In this document: piece after piece, positions 56,946-62,891 of the stretch
Layout of the letters: each line of letters opens with the position of its first letter
How positions within the stretch are numbered: the first letter of the stretch is position 1
Source: Thermococcus henrietii
GTDB taxonomy: Archaea; Methanobacteriota_B; Thermococci; Thermococcales; Thermococcaceae
Assembly: GCF_900198835.1 (NCBI RefSeq)
Contig: NZ_LT900021.1
Location: forward strand, 1,178,001 to 1,242,000
Direction: 5' to 3'
DNA length: 64,000 bases
Position numbers and translations under genes: made by a program
Notes under the pieces: model-generated
Database searches by the model: none
What the model saw: the letters and a program-made list of their open reading frames with translations, nothing else
Told to the model about the DNA's origin: nothing

Positions 56946-56972
56946 CCAACCATTTGGTGGAGGAGTGTGACG

Positions 56973-57737
56973 ATGCTGAAATACCTCGGCTACTTCGCTG
57001 TCGGTGTCTTCATTGGAATCCTCGCGGCACTGTTCGGCCTCGGAGGGGGCTTCCTGATAGTGCCAACCCTCAACCTGCTCGGCGTCGAGATGCACCACGC
57101 GGTAGGAACTTCCAGCGCGGCGGTTGTTTTCACTTCGCTTAGCTCGGCTATTGCATACTCAAGGCAGAAGAGGATACACTACAAGGTCGGACTTCTGCTG
57201 GCTTCGACCGCCGTCATAGGCGCCTACATAGGGGCATGGCTCACATCGTTCATCAGCGCCTCCCAGCTGAAGGTCATCTTCGGGCTAGCGCTCATCGTTG
57301 TCGCCGTCAGGATATACAGGAAAAAGACTGCCGAGCCGAGCGAGGTCAAACTCGAGGACGTTAGGGTGAACTACAAGCTCGTTCCGGTCGGTGGATTCTT
57401 CGCGGGAATCGCGAGCGGTCTGCTCGGCGTTGGTGGCGGAATAATCAACGTGCCCTTCCTGACCTACCTCGGCCTGCCAATTCACTACGCCGTCGCAACC
57501 TCAAGCTTCGCGATTGTCTTCACCGCAACGGCAGGAGCTCTCAAGCACTACGCGATGGGCAACGTGGAGACGCAGTGGCTCGTCCTCCTCGTGCCGGGTC
57601 TAATACTGGGGGCGCAGGTAGGGGCCAGAATAGCCAAGAGAACGAAGGCGAGCAGTCTGAAAAAGGCCTTCGCCGTCGTGATGTTCCTCCTGGCCCTGAG
57701 GATGATTCTCAAGGGTCTCGGCTTCGCGGTTCCGTGA
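56973..57737 (+). CDS. TauE/SafE-family transporter, copy 1
   Basis: 254 residues with eight membrane helices in two repeats, each containing the G-rich G(V/L)GGGF(L/I)-type turn: LFGLGGGFLIVPTLNLLG and LLGVGGGIINVPFLTYLG. The family exports sulfite, sulfoacetate or taurine-derived anions. The start is ATG 56973 with GGAGGAG upstream; GTG 56967 is an alternative. Copy 2 follows 31 bases after the stop. Confidence 0.85.
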   Translation: MLKYLGYFAVGVFIGILAALFGLGGGFLIVPTLNLLGVEMHHAVGTSSAAVVFTSLSSAIAYSRQKRIHYKVGLLLASTAVIGAYIGAWLTSFISASQLKVIFGLALIVVAVRIYRKKTAEPSEVKLEDVRVNYKLVPVGGFFAGIASGLLGVGGGIINVPFLTYLGLPIHYAVATSSFAIVFTATAGALKHYAMGNVETQWLVLLVPGLILGAQVGARIAKRTKASSLKKAFAVVMFLLALRMILKGLGFAVP

Positions 57738-57768
57738 GGTTTTTAAGAGGCCCCCTTAACTTTTTCCC

Positions 57769-58521
57769 ATGAGCAATTACGCCCTCTACTTCGCCGTGGG
57801 TGTAACTGTTGGAATCGTTTCTGCCCTCTTCGGCTTAGGCGGTGGCTTCGTCCTCGTTCCGGTTCTCAACATCCTTGGCGTCAGCATTCACCAGGCCGTC
57901 GGGACTTCGAGCGCGGCAGTGGTCTTCACGGCCCTCAGCTCGACGATAGCCTACTCGAGAAGGGGAATGATTCACTACAAGACAGGCGTCCTGCTTTCGA
58001 TTCCTGCCATCATCGGAGCCTACCTTGGGGCTGTCATGACAACCTACGTGACCCCCGGTGAGCTCAAGGTAATCTTCGGTGTGACCCTCCTGTTCGTCGC
58101 TTACAGGATTTACACGAAGGAAACCGCGGAGCTGGGTGATTTGGCGGTTTCAGAGGTAAAAATTGACTATCGCCTCGTTCCAATCGGCGGGTTTTTCTCG
58201 GGGATTGCCAGCGGTCTCCTGGGGGTTGGTGGCGGAATAATCAACGTACCATTCCTCGTGTGGCTCGGCATGCCAATGCACTATGCCGTCGCGACTTCGA
58301 GCTTTGCCATAGTGTTCACCTCCGCGAGTAGCGCCCTCAAGCACTATATGCTGGGTAACGTTGAACTCCACTGGCTCGTCCTCCTCGTGCCCGGCCTGAT
58401 AATCGGGGCACAGCTCGGCGCGAGGCTCGCGGAGAGGGTTAAGGCGTCCTCCCTAAAGAGGGCCTTCGCGATTGTGATGGTAATCCTGGCTTTGAGGATG
58501 ATAGTGAGCGGTTTGAGGTGA
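57769..58521 (+). CDS. TauE/SafE-family transporter, copy 2
   Basis: 250 residues, a close paralogue of copy 1 (shared AVGTSSAAVVFT, SGLLGVGGGIINVPFL and YAVATSSFAIVFT). A TATA-like TTTTTAAG (57739-57746) places initiation at about 57768, so translation should be leaderless, and indeed no ribosome site precedes ATG 57769. Tandem duplication with separate promoters suggests different regulation. The 90-residue gene follows five bases later. Confidence 0.85.
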   Translation: MSNYALYFAVGVTVGIVSALFGLGGGFVLVPVLNILGVSIHQAVGTSSAAVVFTALSSTIAYSRRGMIHYKTGVLLSIPAIIGAYLGAVMTTYVTPGELKVIFGVTLLFVAYRIYTKETAELGDLAVSEVKIDYRLVPIGGFFSGIASGLLGVGGGIINVPFLVWLGMPMHYAVATSSFAIVFTSASSALKHYMLGNVELHWLVLLVPGLIIGAQLGARLAERVKASSLKRAFAIVMVILALRMIVSGLR

Positions 58522-58525
58522 TAAC

Positions 58526-58798
58526 ATGGAGGAGCTCGTCGAGAAGGTTCGCGAGAAGTTCGGCCTTGAGGTCAAAGACATGGCCGACGCTTGGAAGCTC
58601 GTTGAGTGGCTCGAGGAGAGAGAGTGGGTCGTTTACATCATAACCGCCAAAAACAGGAAGCAGGTCGATGCGTGGCACCCGCGCTACGGGACGCTGTTTG
58701 CCCAGTTCGGGGAGGTTCCGAACTTTGGGAGCATCTTTGAGGGCATCTTGACCGTTGCGCTCTTGGCCAAAGAGCTTGAGGAAAAAGGAACGATTTGA
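58526..58798 (+). CDS. Small conserved-looking protein, function unknown
   Basis: 90 residues, acidic and mainly helical with two aromatic strands (EWVVYIITAKNRKQVDAWHPRYGTLFAQFGEVPNFGSIFEGI). It has no signal peptide. GAGGTGAT lies seven bases before the ATG, which overlaps the tail of the transporter gene's spacing. Nothing identifies it; it is likely co-transcribed with transporter copy 2. Confidence 0.6.
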   Translation: MEELVEKVREKFGLEVKDMADAWKLVEWLEEREWVVYIITAKNRKQVDAWHPRYGTLFAQFGEVPNFGSIFEGILTVALLAKELEEKGTI

Positions 58799-58805
58799 AA
58801 CGCGC

Positions 58806-58823
58806 GTTCCACCGCGACCCTAA
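58806..58823 (+). promoter_or_regulatory. Shared promoter element of the repeated module, copy 1
   Basis: GTTCCACCGC-GA-CCCTAA. The same element with a different two-base spacer occurs at 60947-60964 before the second module copy, again about 50 bases before the start codon. In copy 1 it adjoins CCTAAAATATTC, a possible TATA box. It is a strong candidate for a common operator, perhaps bound by the membrane-anchored wHTH proteins encoded downstream (inference). Confidence 0.6.
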
Positions 58824-58853
58824 AATATTCGGGCCCCCAAGAGGGGGACGGTG

Positions 58854-60008
58854 ATGGCCGTGAGGAAGTTACTCGTGGTAATACTGACGGCCCTGCTCGT
58901 GGGGAGCGTGGTGCCCTTCGCCCTCGCGAGCGGGTCAGAGAACTCCACCACTGAGACAAACGAGGTTCCGCAGGAGAAGGTCGTCGCCCAGAAACTCATA
59001 GACAACCTCAAGAGGCTCGCCGAGGTCACCGAGGCGAAGGTTCCCGAGAACATGACGAACTCGACGTACCTAACCTTAGCAGAGGAACACTACAACAAAG
59101 CCCTGAGCGAGTTCCAGGCGGGGAACTACAACGCCTCCATGGTGGACGCGCTGATGGCGATGCACTACTACCGGCTCGTGCTGTCGGAGATTGGAGCACC
59201 GATGAAGGGAGCCGGTGCCAACGTGGAGGCCCAGTTCAGGGCTCAGGTCGAGAGAACCAGGGCTTACCTGCGCTACGCTGAGAGGCTCATCAACGTTGCC
59301 GGTGAGAAGGGACTAAACGTCACCGAGGCGAGGGAACTATACAACGAGACCCTTGAGGCGTTCAAGCTCGTAATGGAGGACGTACGCTCTGGAAACATGA
59401 CGAAGGCAAGGGAAGACTACGAGGTTGCCCTCCAGAAGAAGGCCGAGCTCGACTCCGCGTTGAAGGAACTGAGGCTCCAGATGCTCCACCAGAATGCGGA
59501 GCAAGTGGTTGAGCGCTTTCTCGTGAAGGGCGAGAGGGCAATCCAGCTCGCCAACAGGACCCTGAGCGAGAACCCGAACCCGGAGCTGAACGAGACCTAC
59601 ACCGCGTTCCTTGAGCTCTACACGAGCGTCAAGACCCTCGCGGACGAGGGCAGGTGGGACGAAGCCCTTAACCTCATAATCGAGAAGAGGGACGTGGTCA
59701 AGGAGTTCCAGATGACGCTCACAAGGGGAAGGACCATGGCAAGGGGCCACTTCAAGTGGGAAGGGAACTTCGAGAAGCTCAAGGAACTCCACGAGAGGAT
59801 AATCCACGACGGCAGGGAGCTCATGAAGCTCAAGCGCGAGGGCGTTGACGTCTCGAAGGCGGAAGTTCAGCTGAGGAGCGCAATGAACGAATACAAGCTC
59901 GGAATCCGCCTGCTCCGCACCGGACAGCCCGAGAAGGCGAAAGAACACTTCGAGGCCGCCGTCACCCTCCTGAAGGAGGTGGAAGCCTTCATCAACGCGC
60001 ACTCCTGA
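58854..60008 (+). CDS. Exported helical protein of the repeated module, copy 1
   Basis: 384 residues. A signal peptide (KLLVVILTALLVGSVVPFALA) is followed by long helices: a LAEEHYNKALSEFQAGNYNASMVDALMAMHYYRLVL segment (TPR-like, about residues 67-105), then coiled-coil-rich sequence with many Asn-x-Thr sites, ending with another TPR-like YKLGIRLLRTGQPEKAKEHFEAAV. No anchor at the C-terminus is seen, so it is secreted or held by the S-layer. It is followed 24 bases later by the membrane wHTH gene. It is related to 61000-61896. Confidence 0.7.
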   Translation: MAVRKLLVVILTALLVGSVVPFALASGSENSTTETNEVPQEKVVAQKLIDNLKRLAEVTEAKVPENMTNSTYLTLAEEHYNKALSEFQAGNYNASMVDALMAMHYYRLVLSEIGAPMKGAGANVEAQFRAQVERTRAYLRYAERLINVAGEKGLNVTEARELYNETLEAFKLVMEDVRSGNMTKAREDYEVALQKKAELDSALKELRLQMLHQNAEQVVERFLVKGERAIQLANRTLSENPNPELNETYTAFLELYTSVKTLADEGRWDEALNLIIEKRDVVKEFQMTLTRGRTMARGHFKWEGNFEKLKELHERIIHDGRELMKLKREGVDVSKAEVQLRSAMNEYKLGIRLLRTGQPEKAKEHFEAAVTLLKEVEAFINAHS

Positions 60009-60032
60009 CCCTTTCATTTTGGAGGTGGAGGA

Positions 60033-60866
60033 ATGAGAAGGCTTCGATGCACGGCGCTCGTCTTCGCACTGCTTCTGCTGGCTTCCCCGGTCCTCGCCCA
60101 GGAGACCGTAAAGCTCTTCGTTTACGAGGACGGTTACGTCAAGGTGGAAATTTCGATAGTGCCGAATAACTACACCGAACCGCTAATCGTGCCGGTTACC
60201 GAACACGCCCAAGACATCATCGTTGAGGACTCCCGGGGAAACCCCATCGATTTCCAGGAGACCAACGGGTCCCTTCTGATTTATCCCGGAAATGCTGAGC
60301 TCGTTAGGATTTCCTACTACACCCCCGACCTCACCTCCAAGAGGGGAATAGTCTGGACGGTTAACTTCTCCTCCGAGGTCCCCTTTGAGGTTGTCCTCCC
60401 CGATGGTGCCGTCATCGTTGATTTGAGCGATATCCCCCTTCGAATAAACGGAACCTCCATAACGATGCCTCCGGGCAACCAGAGCGTCTCCTACATCATT
60501 GAAAACCCCCCAACTGGCAAGAACCAGAAAAGCGGTGCCCCCGAAGTCCTCCTGGCCTTTGGCGGGGCTGTTCTTGTCGGAGGAGTGTTTTTCATATGGC
60601 GGAGGAACCGGTCCGGAAACGATGGCGGTGAGACCAAAGCTGACCCCATTGAAGAGGCCCTTGAAAGCGACGAGCTGAGGGAGGAGGAAAAGCTTGCGCT
60701 GAAGTACCTGCTGGAGCACGGCGGACGGGCCAGTCAGGCGGAGATAAGGGACGCGCTCGGCATTCCGAAGACAACCGCCTGGAGGATGTTCAAGCGCCTC
60801 GAGGAGAAGGGACTCGTGAGAATCATCCGGGGGAGGAAAGAGAACTGGGTGGAGTTGAAGCGTTAG
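60033..60866 (+). CDS. Membrane-anchored one-component wHTH regulator, copy 1
   Basis: 277 residues. Layout: signal peptide or first helix (about 1-22), a beta-rich outer domain (about 23-165) with a conserved end VIVDLSDIPL...GTSITMPPGNQSVSYI, a single membrane helix (EVLLAFGGAVLVGGVFFIW, about 170-189), a charged linker, then a cytoplasmic winged HTH (about 210-277, GRASQAEIRDALGIPKTTAWRMFKRLEEKGLVRIIRGRKENWVEL). This is a sensor with DNA-binding tail. GGAGGTGG precedes the ATG. Paralogue at 61908. Confidence 0.8.
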   Translation: MRRLRCTALVFALLLLASPVLAQETVKLFVYEDGYVKVEISIVPNNYTEPLIVPVTEHAQDIIVEDSRGNPIDFQETNGSLLIYPGNAELVRISYYTPDLTSKRGIVWTVNFSSEVPFEVVLPDGAVIVDLSDIPLRINGTSITMPPGNQSVSYIIENPPTGKNQKSGAPEVLLAFGGAVLVGGVFFIWRRNRSGNDGGETKADPIEEALESDELREEEKLALKYLLEHGGRASQAEIRDALGIPKTTAWRMFKRLEEKGLVRIIRGRKENWVELKR

Positions 60867-60946
60867 AGAAAACGTTATATCCCCCTCGCCCCTAATTCTA
60901 TCCGCCTGAAATCGAAAGGAACTTGCGGAAACGTTTTAAGTCCTTT

Positions 60947-60991
60947 GTTCCACCGCTTCCCTAATTAGGGATGAGCCGTAACTTAAAGCGG
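60947..60991 (+). promoter_or_regulatory. Shared promoter element copy 2, palindrome and leader hairpin
   Basis: GTTCCACCGC-TT-CCCTAA (60947-60964) repeats the element of copy 1. It merges with the perfect palindrome CCCTAATTAGGG (60959-60970). CCGCTT (60953-60958) is also complementary to AAGCGG (60986-60991), whose last bases enter the ribosome site GGTGAT of the next gene. So both a DNA operator and a masking leader hairpin are possible here. TATA candidate CGTTTTAAG lies at 60932-60940. Confidence 0.55.
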
Positions 60992-60999
60992 TGATAATT

Positions 61000-61896
61000 G
61001 TGAGGAGAATCGCGTTCATGATTATCGGAATACTGCTCGTCTCACTTGTCCCGGCAGTCGGCGGGGTTAGTTCCGAGACCGTCTCGGCATCAACGAGAGC
61101 AAACGGACTGCTCCTTGCACTGGACCGGCTCGCCAACTACACCCATTCCGTCAACTGCACCTCCGAGCAGGCTGATGCCCTTCGCGAAAAGGCCTGGGAG
61201 CTGTACAGGGCAGGGAACTACAACGAGAGTGCCGAGGAAGCGCTTAGGGCAATGGACCTGTACCGCTCCGCGCTCGAATACTGCAAAACAGCGGGGGAGG
61301 AGAACATGACGCAGGACTGGGTCTCGGTCGCTGAGACTGAGCTGGCAATCACAGCGAACGTCCTTGAGTATGCCAAGAAACTCATCGATTCGGGAGAACT
61401 CAGCGGAAGGGACCTTGAGAGTGTTGAGGTCGAGTACAACCAAACACTCAAGGTGTACGAGGGGCTTAAGGAGAGCCTCGCTGAGAACGATACTCAGGAC
61501 CTTCCCCACAAGGTGGCTTTCCTGCGTACATCCCGGGAAGGGCTTGAACGGGCAATCAAACTTGCCGTGGGGGATTCCCTCAGGAAAACCGCCCCAAAGA
61601 TGGCTGAAATCCAGCTCCGTATGCTCGACGAGCTCGTTGAACGTGGCAGGTTAAATGAAACGGAGGCAATAACACTAAAAGAGCAGATTCTGGAGGCTAT
61701 TCAGACTGGGAATTCCGGTGAGGTTTTAAAGGTCCTGCGGGACGTGGATAAGGTTCTCTCAAAGACCCTCAGGGGACACAGGCGCGGAAAGAAAGAGAAG
61801 CCTCATCCGGAGGTCTCTCCCAACAACCAGACGAGTTCGGGGATGACCCAAACTCCCGAGAAGAACGAGACCAGCACCCACCGCGGCAGGGGATAG
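61000..61896 (+). CDS. Exported helical protein of the repeated module, copy 2
   Basis: 298 residues starting with GTG 61000 (a GTG nine bases earlier is possible). Signal peptide (RRIAFMIIGILLVSLVPAVGG), then the TPR-like LREKAWELYRAGNYNESAEEALRAMDLYRSALEYC (about residues 60-95), which matches copy 1, and coiled-coil sequence; it ends in a charged, Ser/Thr-rich tail. Two cysteines near the N-terminal repeat differ from copy 1. Function unknown; paired with the wHTH gene 11 bases downstream. Confidence 0.7.
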   Translation: MRRIAFMIIGILLVSLVPAVGGVSSETVSASTRANGLLLALDRLANYTHSVNCTSEQADALREKAWELYRAGNYNESAEEALRAMDLYRSALEYCKTAGEENMTQDWVSVAETELAITANVLEYAKKLIDSGELSGRDLESVEVEYNQTLKVYEGLKESLAENDTQDLPHKVAFLRTSREGLERAIKLAVGDSLRKTAPKMAEIQLRMLDELVERGRLNETEAITLKEQILEAIQTGNSGEVLKVLRDVDKVLSKTLRGHRRGKKEKPHPEVSPNNQTSSGMTQTPEKNETSTHRGRG

Positions 61897-61907
61897 GGGT
61901 GAAGCCG

Positions 61908-62891
61908 GTGAAAAGGTGCCCGATGCTTTTGATTGTGGTTCTCCTGCTCGCCCCTCACGTGGCTGCCCAATCAATAAAATCGGTTGAAGTTTCAGTCTAC
62001 ACAAGCGGTTACGCTAAGGTTACCGAAGTTCTCACCCCTCCAAACTACTCCGTGGCCGTCGAGGTGCCCCTTCTAAGCGAGAACGTTACAGGCCTCTCCG
62101 TTCTGGACGAGAACGGAAAACCGCTCCTCTTTGAGAAGAACGGGAGCGTTCTAACGGTTTACGTCCTCAACTCAACCACCCGGATAACCGTTACCTACTT
62201 CACCGACTCCCTGACTTCAAAGGAGGGAAAGGTCTGGAACCTGACCTACAGCTTCCCGTACCCCGTTACAATCAAGCTCCCGCCCGGTGCCGTTGTTGTT
62301 GATTTGAGCGACGTTCCCCTCACGATAACCTCGAACTCGATAACGATGCCCCCGGGCAACCAGAGCGTCTCCTACATTCTCCCGCCCCCGACGACATCAA
62401 CGACGTCATCCCCCTCGCCCACTCAAACACCCACCACGACCACCACGTCGAGCACGTCATCAACGTCCCCGAGCACGACCTCAAGCACATCCTCACCAGT
62501 AGCAACTCCCTCAACGAGCACCACCCCCAGCGAGCCGAGCACTCCCGCGTCCTCCGGCGGAAGGAACATGCTCCCGATAATCGGCTTCCTGGCGGTCGTG
62601 GGCATTCCCGCGGTTGCATACTGGGCGAGGAACAGGAAACACCCGGGAGGTCTTCCAATCTCAAAGGACGAGCTCAAGGAAAAGCTTGAAGCGATGGGTC
62701 TTACCGACGAGGAAATCAACGCGCTCCTCTACGTCTACGACCAGGGCGGAAAGGCCAAGCAGGCCGACGTCAGGAAGGCACTCGGGATTCCGAAGACGAC
62801 TGCCTGGAGGATGTTCAAGCGCCTCGAGGAGAGGGGCCTCGTGCGTGTCTATAAGAGGGGGAAGGAGAACTGGGTGGAGCTGGTACTTTAA
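61908..62891 (+). CDS. Membrane-anchored one-component wHTH regulator, copy 2
   Basis: 327 residues from GTG 61908, preceded at six bases by GGGGTG; GTG 61899 overlaps that site. Same design as 60033-60866: signal peptide, beta-rich outer domain with VVVDLSDVPL and SITMPPGNQSVSYI, then a Thr/Ser/Pro stalk of about 60 residues absent from copy 1, one membrane helix (MLPIIGFLAVVGIPAVAYWA) and a cytoplasmic wHTH (KAKQADVRKALGIPKTTAWRMFKRLEERGLV) nearly identical to copy 1. The stalk is a likely O-glycosylated spacer. Confidence 0.8.
   Translation: MKRCPMLLIVVLLLAPHVAAQSIKSVEVSVYTSGYAKVTEVLTPPNYSVAVEVPLLSENVTGLSVLDENGKPLLFEKNGSVLTVYVLNSTTRITVTYFTDSLTSKEGKVWNLTYSFPYPVTIKLPPGAVVVDLSDVPLTITSNSITMPPGNQSVSYILPPPTTSTTSSPSPTQTPTTTTTSSTSSTSPSTTSSTSSPVATPSTSTTPSEPSTPASSGGRNMLPIIGFLAVVGIPAVAYWARNRKHPGGLPISKDELKEKLEAMGLTDEEINALLYVYDQGGKAKQADVRKALGIPKTTAWRMFKRLEERGLVRVYKRGKENWVELVL

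Follow-up and report, generated by a model that had tools for sequence, protein, structure and literature searches.

The genes considered here form two neighbouring modules in Thermococcus henrietii that appear to encode a membrane-anchored transcription regulator (S) and an exported partner protein (H). They lie in a 64,000-nucleotide stretch of contig NZ_LT900021.1 (positions 1,178,001 to 1,242,000; hereafter the window) of a 2.16-Mb genome. The two homologous units, H1-S1 and H2-S2, follow one another on the plus strand, in each case with the H gene first and the S gene second, and a predicted operator and TATA-like element stand in front of each (Table 1). A preliminary description had proposed two adjacent gene pairs of the same order, and protein comparison bears this out, with 39% identity between S1 and S2 (E 1e-67) and 29% between H1 and H2 (E 1e-9). 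The whole genome has exactly two H genes and no strong S match other than S1 and S2, so that all copies sit within this locus.

Table 1. Genes and predicted promoter features of the two H-S modules. Positions are those of the window; open reading frames are given minus the stop codon, and gene starts were picked mechanically. wHTH, winged helix-turn-helix; BRE, transcription factor B recognition element; pLDDT, predicted local distance difference test; aa, amino acids.
Feature	Position	Strand	Description
Predicted operator 1	58787..58810	+	Tandem GGAAC-N5-GAAAC half-sites (58787-58801) overlapping the palindrome GAAACG-CG-CGTTCC (58797-58810)
TATA/BRE-like element CCCTAAAATATT	58818..58829	+	About 25-30 nucleotides before the H1 start; conserved spacing
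H1	58854..60005	+	Exported protein of 384 aa, all-helical and TPR-like, with a signal peptide and no further transmembrane segment; AlphaFold2 pLDDT 85
S1	60033..60863	+	Signal peptide, beta outer domain (aa 25-156), transmembrane segment (aa 170-192), predicted cytoplasmic wHTH (aa 205-275); AlphaFold2 pLDDT 88
Predicted operator 2	60918..60951	+	GGAAC-N5-GAAAC half-sites (60918-60932) followed by GTTCC as an inverted half-site (60947-60951)
TATA/BRE-like element, CTTCCCTAATTAG region, H2 promoter	60957..60968	+	Assigned from sequence and conserved spacing
H2	60991..61893	+	Exported helical protein, 301 aa; H1 paralogue
S2	61899..62888	+	Signal peptide, outer domain, Ser/Thr/Pro-rich linker, transmembrane segment (aa 222-245), wHTH; S1 paralogue

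The protein architectures agree with what the preliminary description had read from the open reading frames, namely an exported helical protein followed by a single-pass membrane protein with a beta-rich outer domain and a cytoplasmic wHTH. Hydropathy profiles give H1 and H2 a single hydrophobic segment each, the N-terminal signal, and the structure model of H1 contains helices only. S1 and S2 each have a signal segment and one transmembrane segment followed by Arg/Lys residues, at aa 168-191 in S1 by hydropathy (slightly displaced in the AlphaFold2 model) and at aa 222-245 in S2, and a later transmembrane segment was found in 57 of 60 S members. The C-terminus of S is a wHTH that scores above the Pfam cut-offs of PF24034 (DUF7343), PF01978 (TrmB), and PF12802 (MarR_2) in both S1 and S2, and a predicted DNA-binding domain was matched in 60/60 members. 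In these 60, none of the Pfam families listed matched the outer domain. The stretches KTTAWRMFKRLEE and SITMPPGNQSVSYI, quoted earlier as common to the wHTH ends and the outer domains, are present in both S proteins. H1, for which GTG at 58851 is an alternative start, has a C-terminal TPR_2 match, which is the reason for reading it as TPR-like.

In the S1 model a linker at aa 193-201 is of low confidence (pLDDT below 50), and the wHTH part was matched by MarR-family proteins in a search of PDB folds. Outside the wHTH, the closest solved folds are those of ribophorin I/Ost1 (8b6l_O, E 1e-6; 6s7o_E), with the beta domains of M1 aminopeptidases matching almost equally well (E 2e-5 and weaker). 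For both, template-modelling scores (TM-scores) were 0.3-0.4 at about 10-17% identity, and S differs from them in domain context and in having no catalytic motif, HExxH being present in just 1 of 60 members. The outer domain therefore resembles non-catalytic beta domains at low TM-score, and a known enzyme or transporter fold, an identity that the preliminary description had named as speaking against its reading, is unsupported by the Pfam listing of the 60 members and by the fold search of the S1 model, which gave no enzyme active site and no transporter. For H, profile matches to designed alpha-solenoids and PPR proteins look compositional. The cold-induced membrane glycoproteins CipA/CipB were considered as H and dropped, because they have been described as solute-binding proteins (PMC10746257) and because a search with H1 at E 1e-5 came back empty for the Pyrococcus-like genomes G004, G006, G008, and G009, an outcome that would be weak by itself.

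The pairing of H with S is strongly conserved. Relatives were sampled at one genome per species, with genome searches within the phylum, and S relatives were present in 89/94 Thermococcales genomes. Across 80 fetched regions and the window, which together hold 107 S genes, an H relative lies directly upstream on the same strand in 104, mostly with gaps of -1 to 96 nucleotides, a spacing that suggests an operon. This order is beyond chance. One of the 3 exceptions is at a contig end (L061), and the other two are S genes behind a gene for a DUF134-like regulator (L088, L116). In f2 and f4, other families of the class, an H homologue is directly upstream of S in 8/8 S-bearing genomes (H profile E 3e-28 to 1e-7). 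The synteny that the preliminary description had asked for is thus strongly borne out. Two genomes of f5 contain S and no H, and all ten genomes of f3 gave no S match. Several Pyrococcus-like genomes contain a strongly diverged pair adjoining the methionyl-tRNA synthetase gene (L180, L181, L183, L184, L185), which the H profile recovered at E values between 1.5e-6 and 2e-4, except at L185, where the match fell below threshold. S-type proteins without H also occur (L178, L179, L186, L189, and the above-mentioned L116 and L088), mostly directly after the DUF134-like regulator gene and with an altered recognition helix.

The promoter element common to both modules, noted in the preliminary description, is real and occurs at two places only in the window, 58787-58810 and 60918-60932, each preceding an H gene. 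In H promoters generally it consists of GRAAC repeats with N5 spacing, giving a 10-bp period, and its core form is the palindrome GRAACG-N2-CGTTYC. A weak TATA, YCCTNAA, follows 6-9 nucleotides downstream, and the transcript of H1 is probably near-leaderless. The distances from the first half-site to the TATA fall into groups of 41, about 52, and 60-63 bp, in steps of about one helical turn. The element matched 92/103 H promoters versus 9/600 other genes of the same regions. In the T. henrietii genome the short pattern GRAACN5GRAACG occurs 7 times, 2 of them at the H1 and H2 promoters, and is not specific by itself because the reversed pattern occurs 13 times.

Longer forms of the element are far more selective. 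The motif GGAACGNTYNGRAACG had 83 matches in 94 genomes versus 2 for the reversed control (hand-counted from the listing), about 65 of them at H promoters; the 32 matches outside the fetched modules comprised 14 further H promoters, 10 sites in front of other genes, most of them envelope-related, and 8 intragenic sites. The strict palindrome combined with the TATA had 45 matches in 115 genomes versus 0 for the reversed control, nearly all at H promoters and spread over three families, with six matches in two distant families. The tandem motif with strict TATA had 0 matches in the T. henrietii genome itself, where its TATA part slightly misfits the H1 and H2 promoter sites.

The element can tentatively be assigned to S because it and the recognition helix are jointly conserved. 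The predicted recognition helix of the wHTH reads PKTTAWRMF-RLE and hardly varies among 104 S proteins. In the pair linked to metG in Pyrococcus most helices read PKTTVWRM[IV], in the DUF134-linked S proteins they read PRTT[AT]WR[IM], and the promoters of both groups carry no element. The palindrome had no match in G004, G006, G008, and G009, which contain only altered-helix forms of S such as PKTTVWRMI and PRTTTWRIL, nor in the S-less genomes G073, G076, and G098-G107. This joint conservation supports, by inference from sequence, autoregulation of the H-S unit by the S wHTH through the predicted operator, and the palindromic form of the element would suit a wHTH dimer.

A second line of evidence ties H to the outer domain of S. 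Over 103 pairs, H distances correlate with those of the outer domain at r 0.92, with a partial r of 0.80 given the wHTH, versus a partial correlation of 0.15 between H and wHTH distances given the outer domain. When H and the S outer domain are each split into two clusters, the assignments agree in 103/103 pairs, from which it follows that modules duplicate and travel as units with no visible partner swapping. Some loci (L146, L149, L154, L170, L240-L244) have a truncated protein, S', after H, in which the outer domain and transmembrane segment end before any wHTH (about 190 aa), so H stays tied to the outer domain even where the DNA-binding domain is missing. The promoters of these H-S' units, where read, carry the same element as H-S promoters. 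H-S' loci, including L162, are often near a cysteine-desulfurase-like gene. Co-inheritance and co-divergence thus point to an outer domain that reads H, as the preliminary description had proposed, and support contact between the two without proving it.

Taken together, these observations are probably best explained if the H-S unit is an autoregulated, partnered transmembrane one-component regulator, in which S controls H-S and a few surface-protein genes. S would span the membrane, exposing the beta domain on the outer face and the wHTH to the cytoplasm, and the wHTH, probably as a dimer, would bind the palindrome and the phased GRAAC half-sites that immediately precede the weak TATA in the promoter of the H-S operon. 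In archaeal promoters an element upstream of the BRE/TATA, together with a weak TATA, favours activation, and S would most likely activate the H-S operon. Exported H would serve the outer domain as its cognate extracytoplasmic partner, and S would set H production by H occupancy or by the state of the envelope. Because the elements concentrate at H genes, H would be the main output and the circuit a homeostatic loop. In some species a few other surface-protein genes, encoding CW_binding_2 and LamG-like proteins, would have joined the regulon. We infer DNA binding, dimerisation, the sign of regulation, H-S contact, and the signal from the comparisons above.

Several points weigh against this scheme. 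Binding, docking, and expression are predicted from sequence, and the preference for activation over repression is judged from the position of the element and the weak TATA only. The co-divergence figures also reflect common descent, and the wHTH is near-invariant, too conserved for a fair comparison in the distance test; since both feed the numbers, the correlations count as support and not as proof of contact. No PDB structure matched the H1 model at E 0.001 or below, leaving H with no confident fold match. Finally, some H copies, in H-S' units and as orphan H genes, are under the same element with no wHTH encoded locally, and there one has to assume that another S acts in trans or that a different factor is in control.

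A stronger version of the scheme, which we put forward tentatively as less likely than not, is that H is itself the signal. S would then count free H, or H-occupied sites in the envelope, through its outer domain and set H-S transcription to match, forming a closed-loop envelope homeostat across the archaeal class, with the wHTH-less S' proteins as competing receptors that tune the loop. It is unlikely that the GRAAC element belongs to another regulator, in which case H and S would be envelope proteins within a single regulon and the wHTH of S would control other, unseen targets. Such a regulator would fit the presence of the element before H-S' and orphan-H loci without a wHTH gene, and before CW_binding_2 and LamG genes; against it, the element tracks S over three families, is missing where S is absent or present only in altered-helix forms, and has a palindromic shape that would suit a wHTH dimer.

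Less likely again is that the outer domain takes part in protein glycosylation, or senses it, in the manner of Ost1/ribophorin I, H being a glycosylated surface or scaffold protein and not a signal partner. The best fold matches of the S model, one element preceding a PMT_2 glycosyltransferase gene, and the 9 NxS/T sites in H1 all lean that way. However, the PMT_2 link is found in one genome only, and because of the low TM-scores and the nearly equal M1 aminopeptidase matches the likeness to Ost1 may be that of a generic beta domain. Least probable is release of S by regulated proteolysis, with the free wHTH as a soluble factor and H protecting or blocking the cleavage site, which the flexible linker behind the transmembrane segment would permit. 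Against it, no protease gene was noticed as a regular neighbour of the pair among the loci read.

Returning to the partnered regulator, its reach beyond H may differ between lineages. Element-bearing genes other than H encode CW_binding_2 proteins (L141, L157, L158, L160, L163), LamG-like proteins (L145, L168), a PMT_2 protein (L147), and an ABC transporter (L174), all of which may be lineage-specific additions to the regulon. The exported CW_binding_2 surface protein at L141:4800-5957 (minus strand) has GGAACGATTTGGAACG or a close form about 150 nucleotides upstream of its start, an arrangement conserved in the relatives L157, L158, and L163 that makes it a candidate further target of S. The LamG-like exported proteins at L145:2144-2956 and L168:1991-2875, from two genera, are likewise preceded by the GRAAC element and the TATA. 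The T. henrietii genome also encodes a transmembrane wHTH protein (L235:1477-2490, minus strand; G000:C1, near 2133677) with an S-like layout and a different outer domain, in which a CW_binding_2 domain is followed by a transmembrane segment and a DUF7343 wHTH. Directly upstream of the module in the window are two similar tandem genes for TauE/SafE-type transporters (56967-58521, plus strand; only the second was scanned against Pfam) and a gene for a 90-aa protein with no Pfam match above cut-off (58526-58798, plus strand), whose 3' end is overlapped by operator 1 and which has a relative, also upstream of H, at L074:7373-7651.

Transmembrane transcription regulators are widespread, and Thermococci have been listed as enriched in them (PMC10269533). 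S has the predicted DNA-binding domain and at least one transmembrane region in one chain that define this class, and it would regulate transcription from the membrane. Bacterial ToxR/ToxS and TcpP/TcpH, tabulated as regulator and associated protein (Table 1 of PMC10269533), are likewise membrane-anchored wHTH regulators co-encoded with an extracytoplasmic partner, and in H-S such a partner accompanies S with the frequencies given above, the operon being judged from the gaps. The differences are considerable. ToxR/ToxS has an OmpR-type (Trans_reg_C) wHTH at the N-terminus, whereas the wHTH of S is of MarR/TrmB/DUF7343 type and C-terminal, the outer domain being N-terminal, after the signal peptide. 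Unlike ToxS and TcpH, H is encoded upstream of its regulator and is a helical protein exported in soluble form, and H-S is predicted to act mainly on its own module. In ToxR/ToxS the partner binds and stabilises the extracytoplasmic domain of the regulator, and for H-S co-divergence alone points that way. No sequence relation between H-S and ToxR/ToxS or TcpP/TcpH was found, and the best model is that H-S would work like ToxR/ToxS by analogy, not by homology.

Among archaea, ArnR/ArnR1 of Sulfolobus are, like S, single-polypeptide membrane regulators, and they regulate surface structures (PMC6396743, PMC10269533); ArnR represents the archaea in a table of characterised transmembrane regulators (PMC10269533). 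Their helix-turn-helix is in the N-terminal region (PMC13286277), the reverse of the domain order in S, and the same table lists no associated partner for them, whereas S has H. Their targets are archaellum and pili genes and not a partner of their own, and no archaellum gene was noticed among the element-bearing promoters examined. The TrmB sugar regulators have a C-terminal sugar-binding domain after the wHTH, whereas S ends with the wHTH, and its listed Pfam matches include no effector domain of TrmB type; compared with the TrmB, MarR, and DUF7343 families, S adds a transmembrane segment and the beta outer domain. The novelty seen in the preliminary description must therefore be narrowed, since single-polypeptide membrane regulators were already known in archaea, as ArnR illustrates; the partnered, self-targeting version is new. 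We found no published description of the H-S pair, nor relevant literature on DUF7343, COG2512, TK1050, or TK1051.

How archaea with only a surface layer (S-layer) sense and repair their envelope is a largely unknown field, and the H-S module offers a conserved set of sensor, partner, and operator for direct testing. The genetic model T. kodakarensis KOD1 appears to have a single pair. Genome G023 is very probably this strain, because its gene order N-acetyltransferase, peroxiredoxin, rubrerythrin-like agrees with that of TK1054-TK1056; counting genes back, its S is probably TK1050 and its H TK1051, a count that could be off by one. Only one S place is listed for this genome, with the element preceding the pair, and single and double deletions would therefore be interpretable. 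The analysis further predicts an operator for a so far unassigned family of archaeal regulators, together with a small regulon of surface-protein genes.

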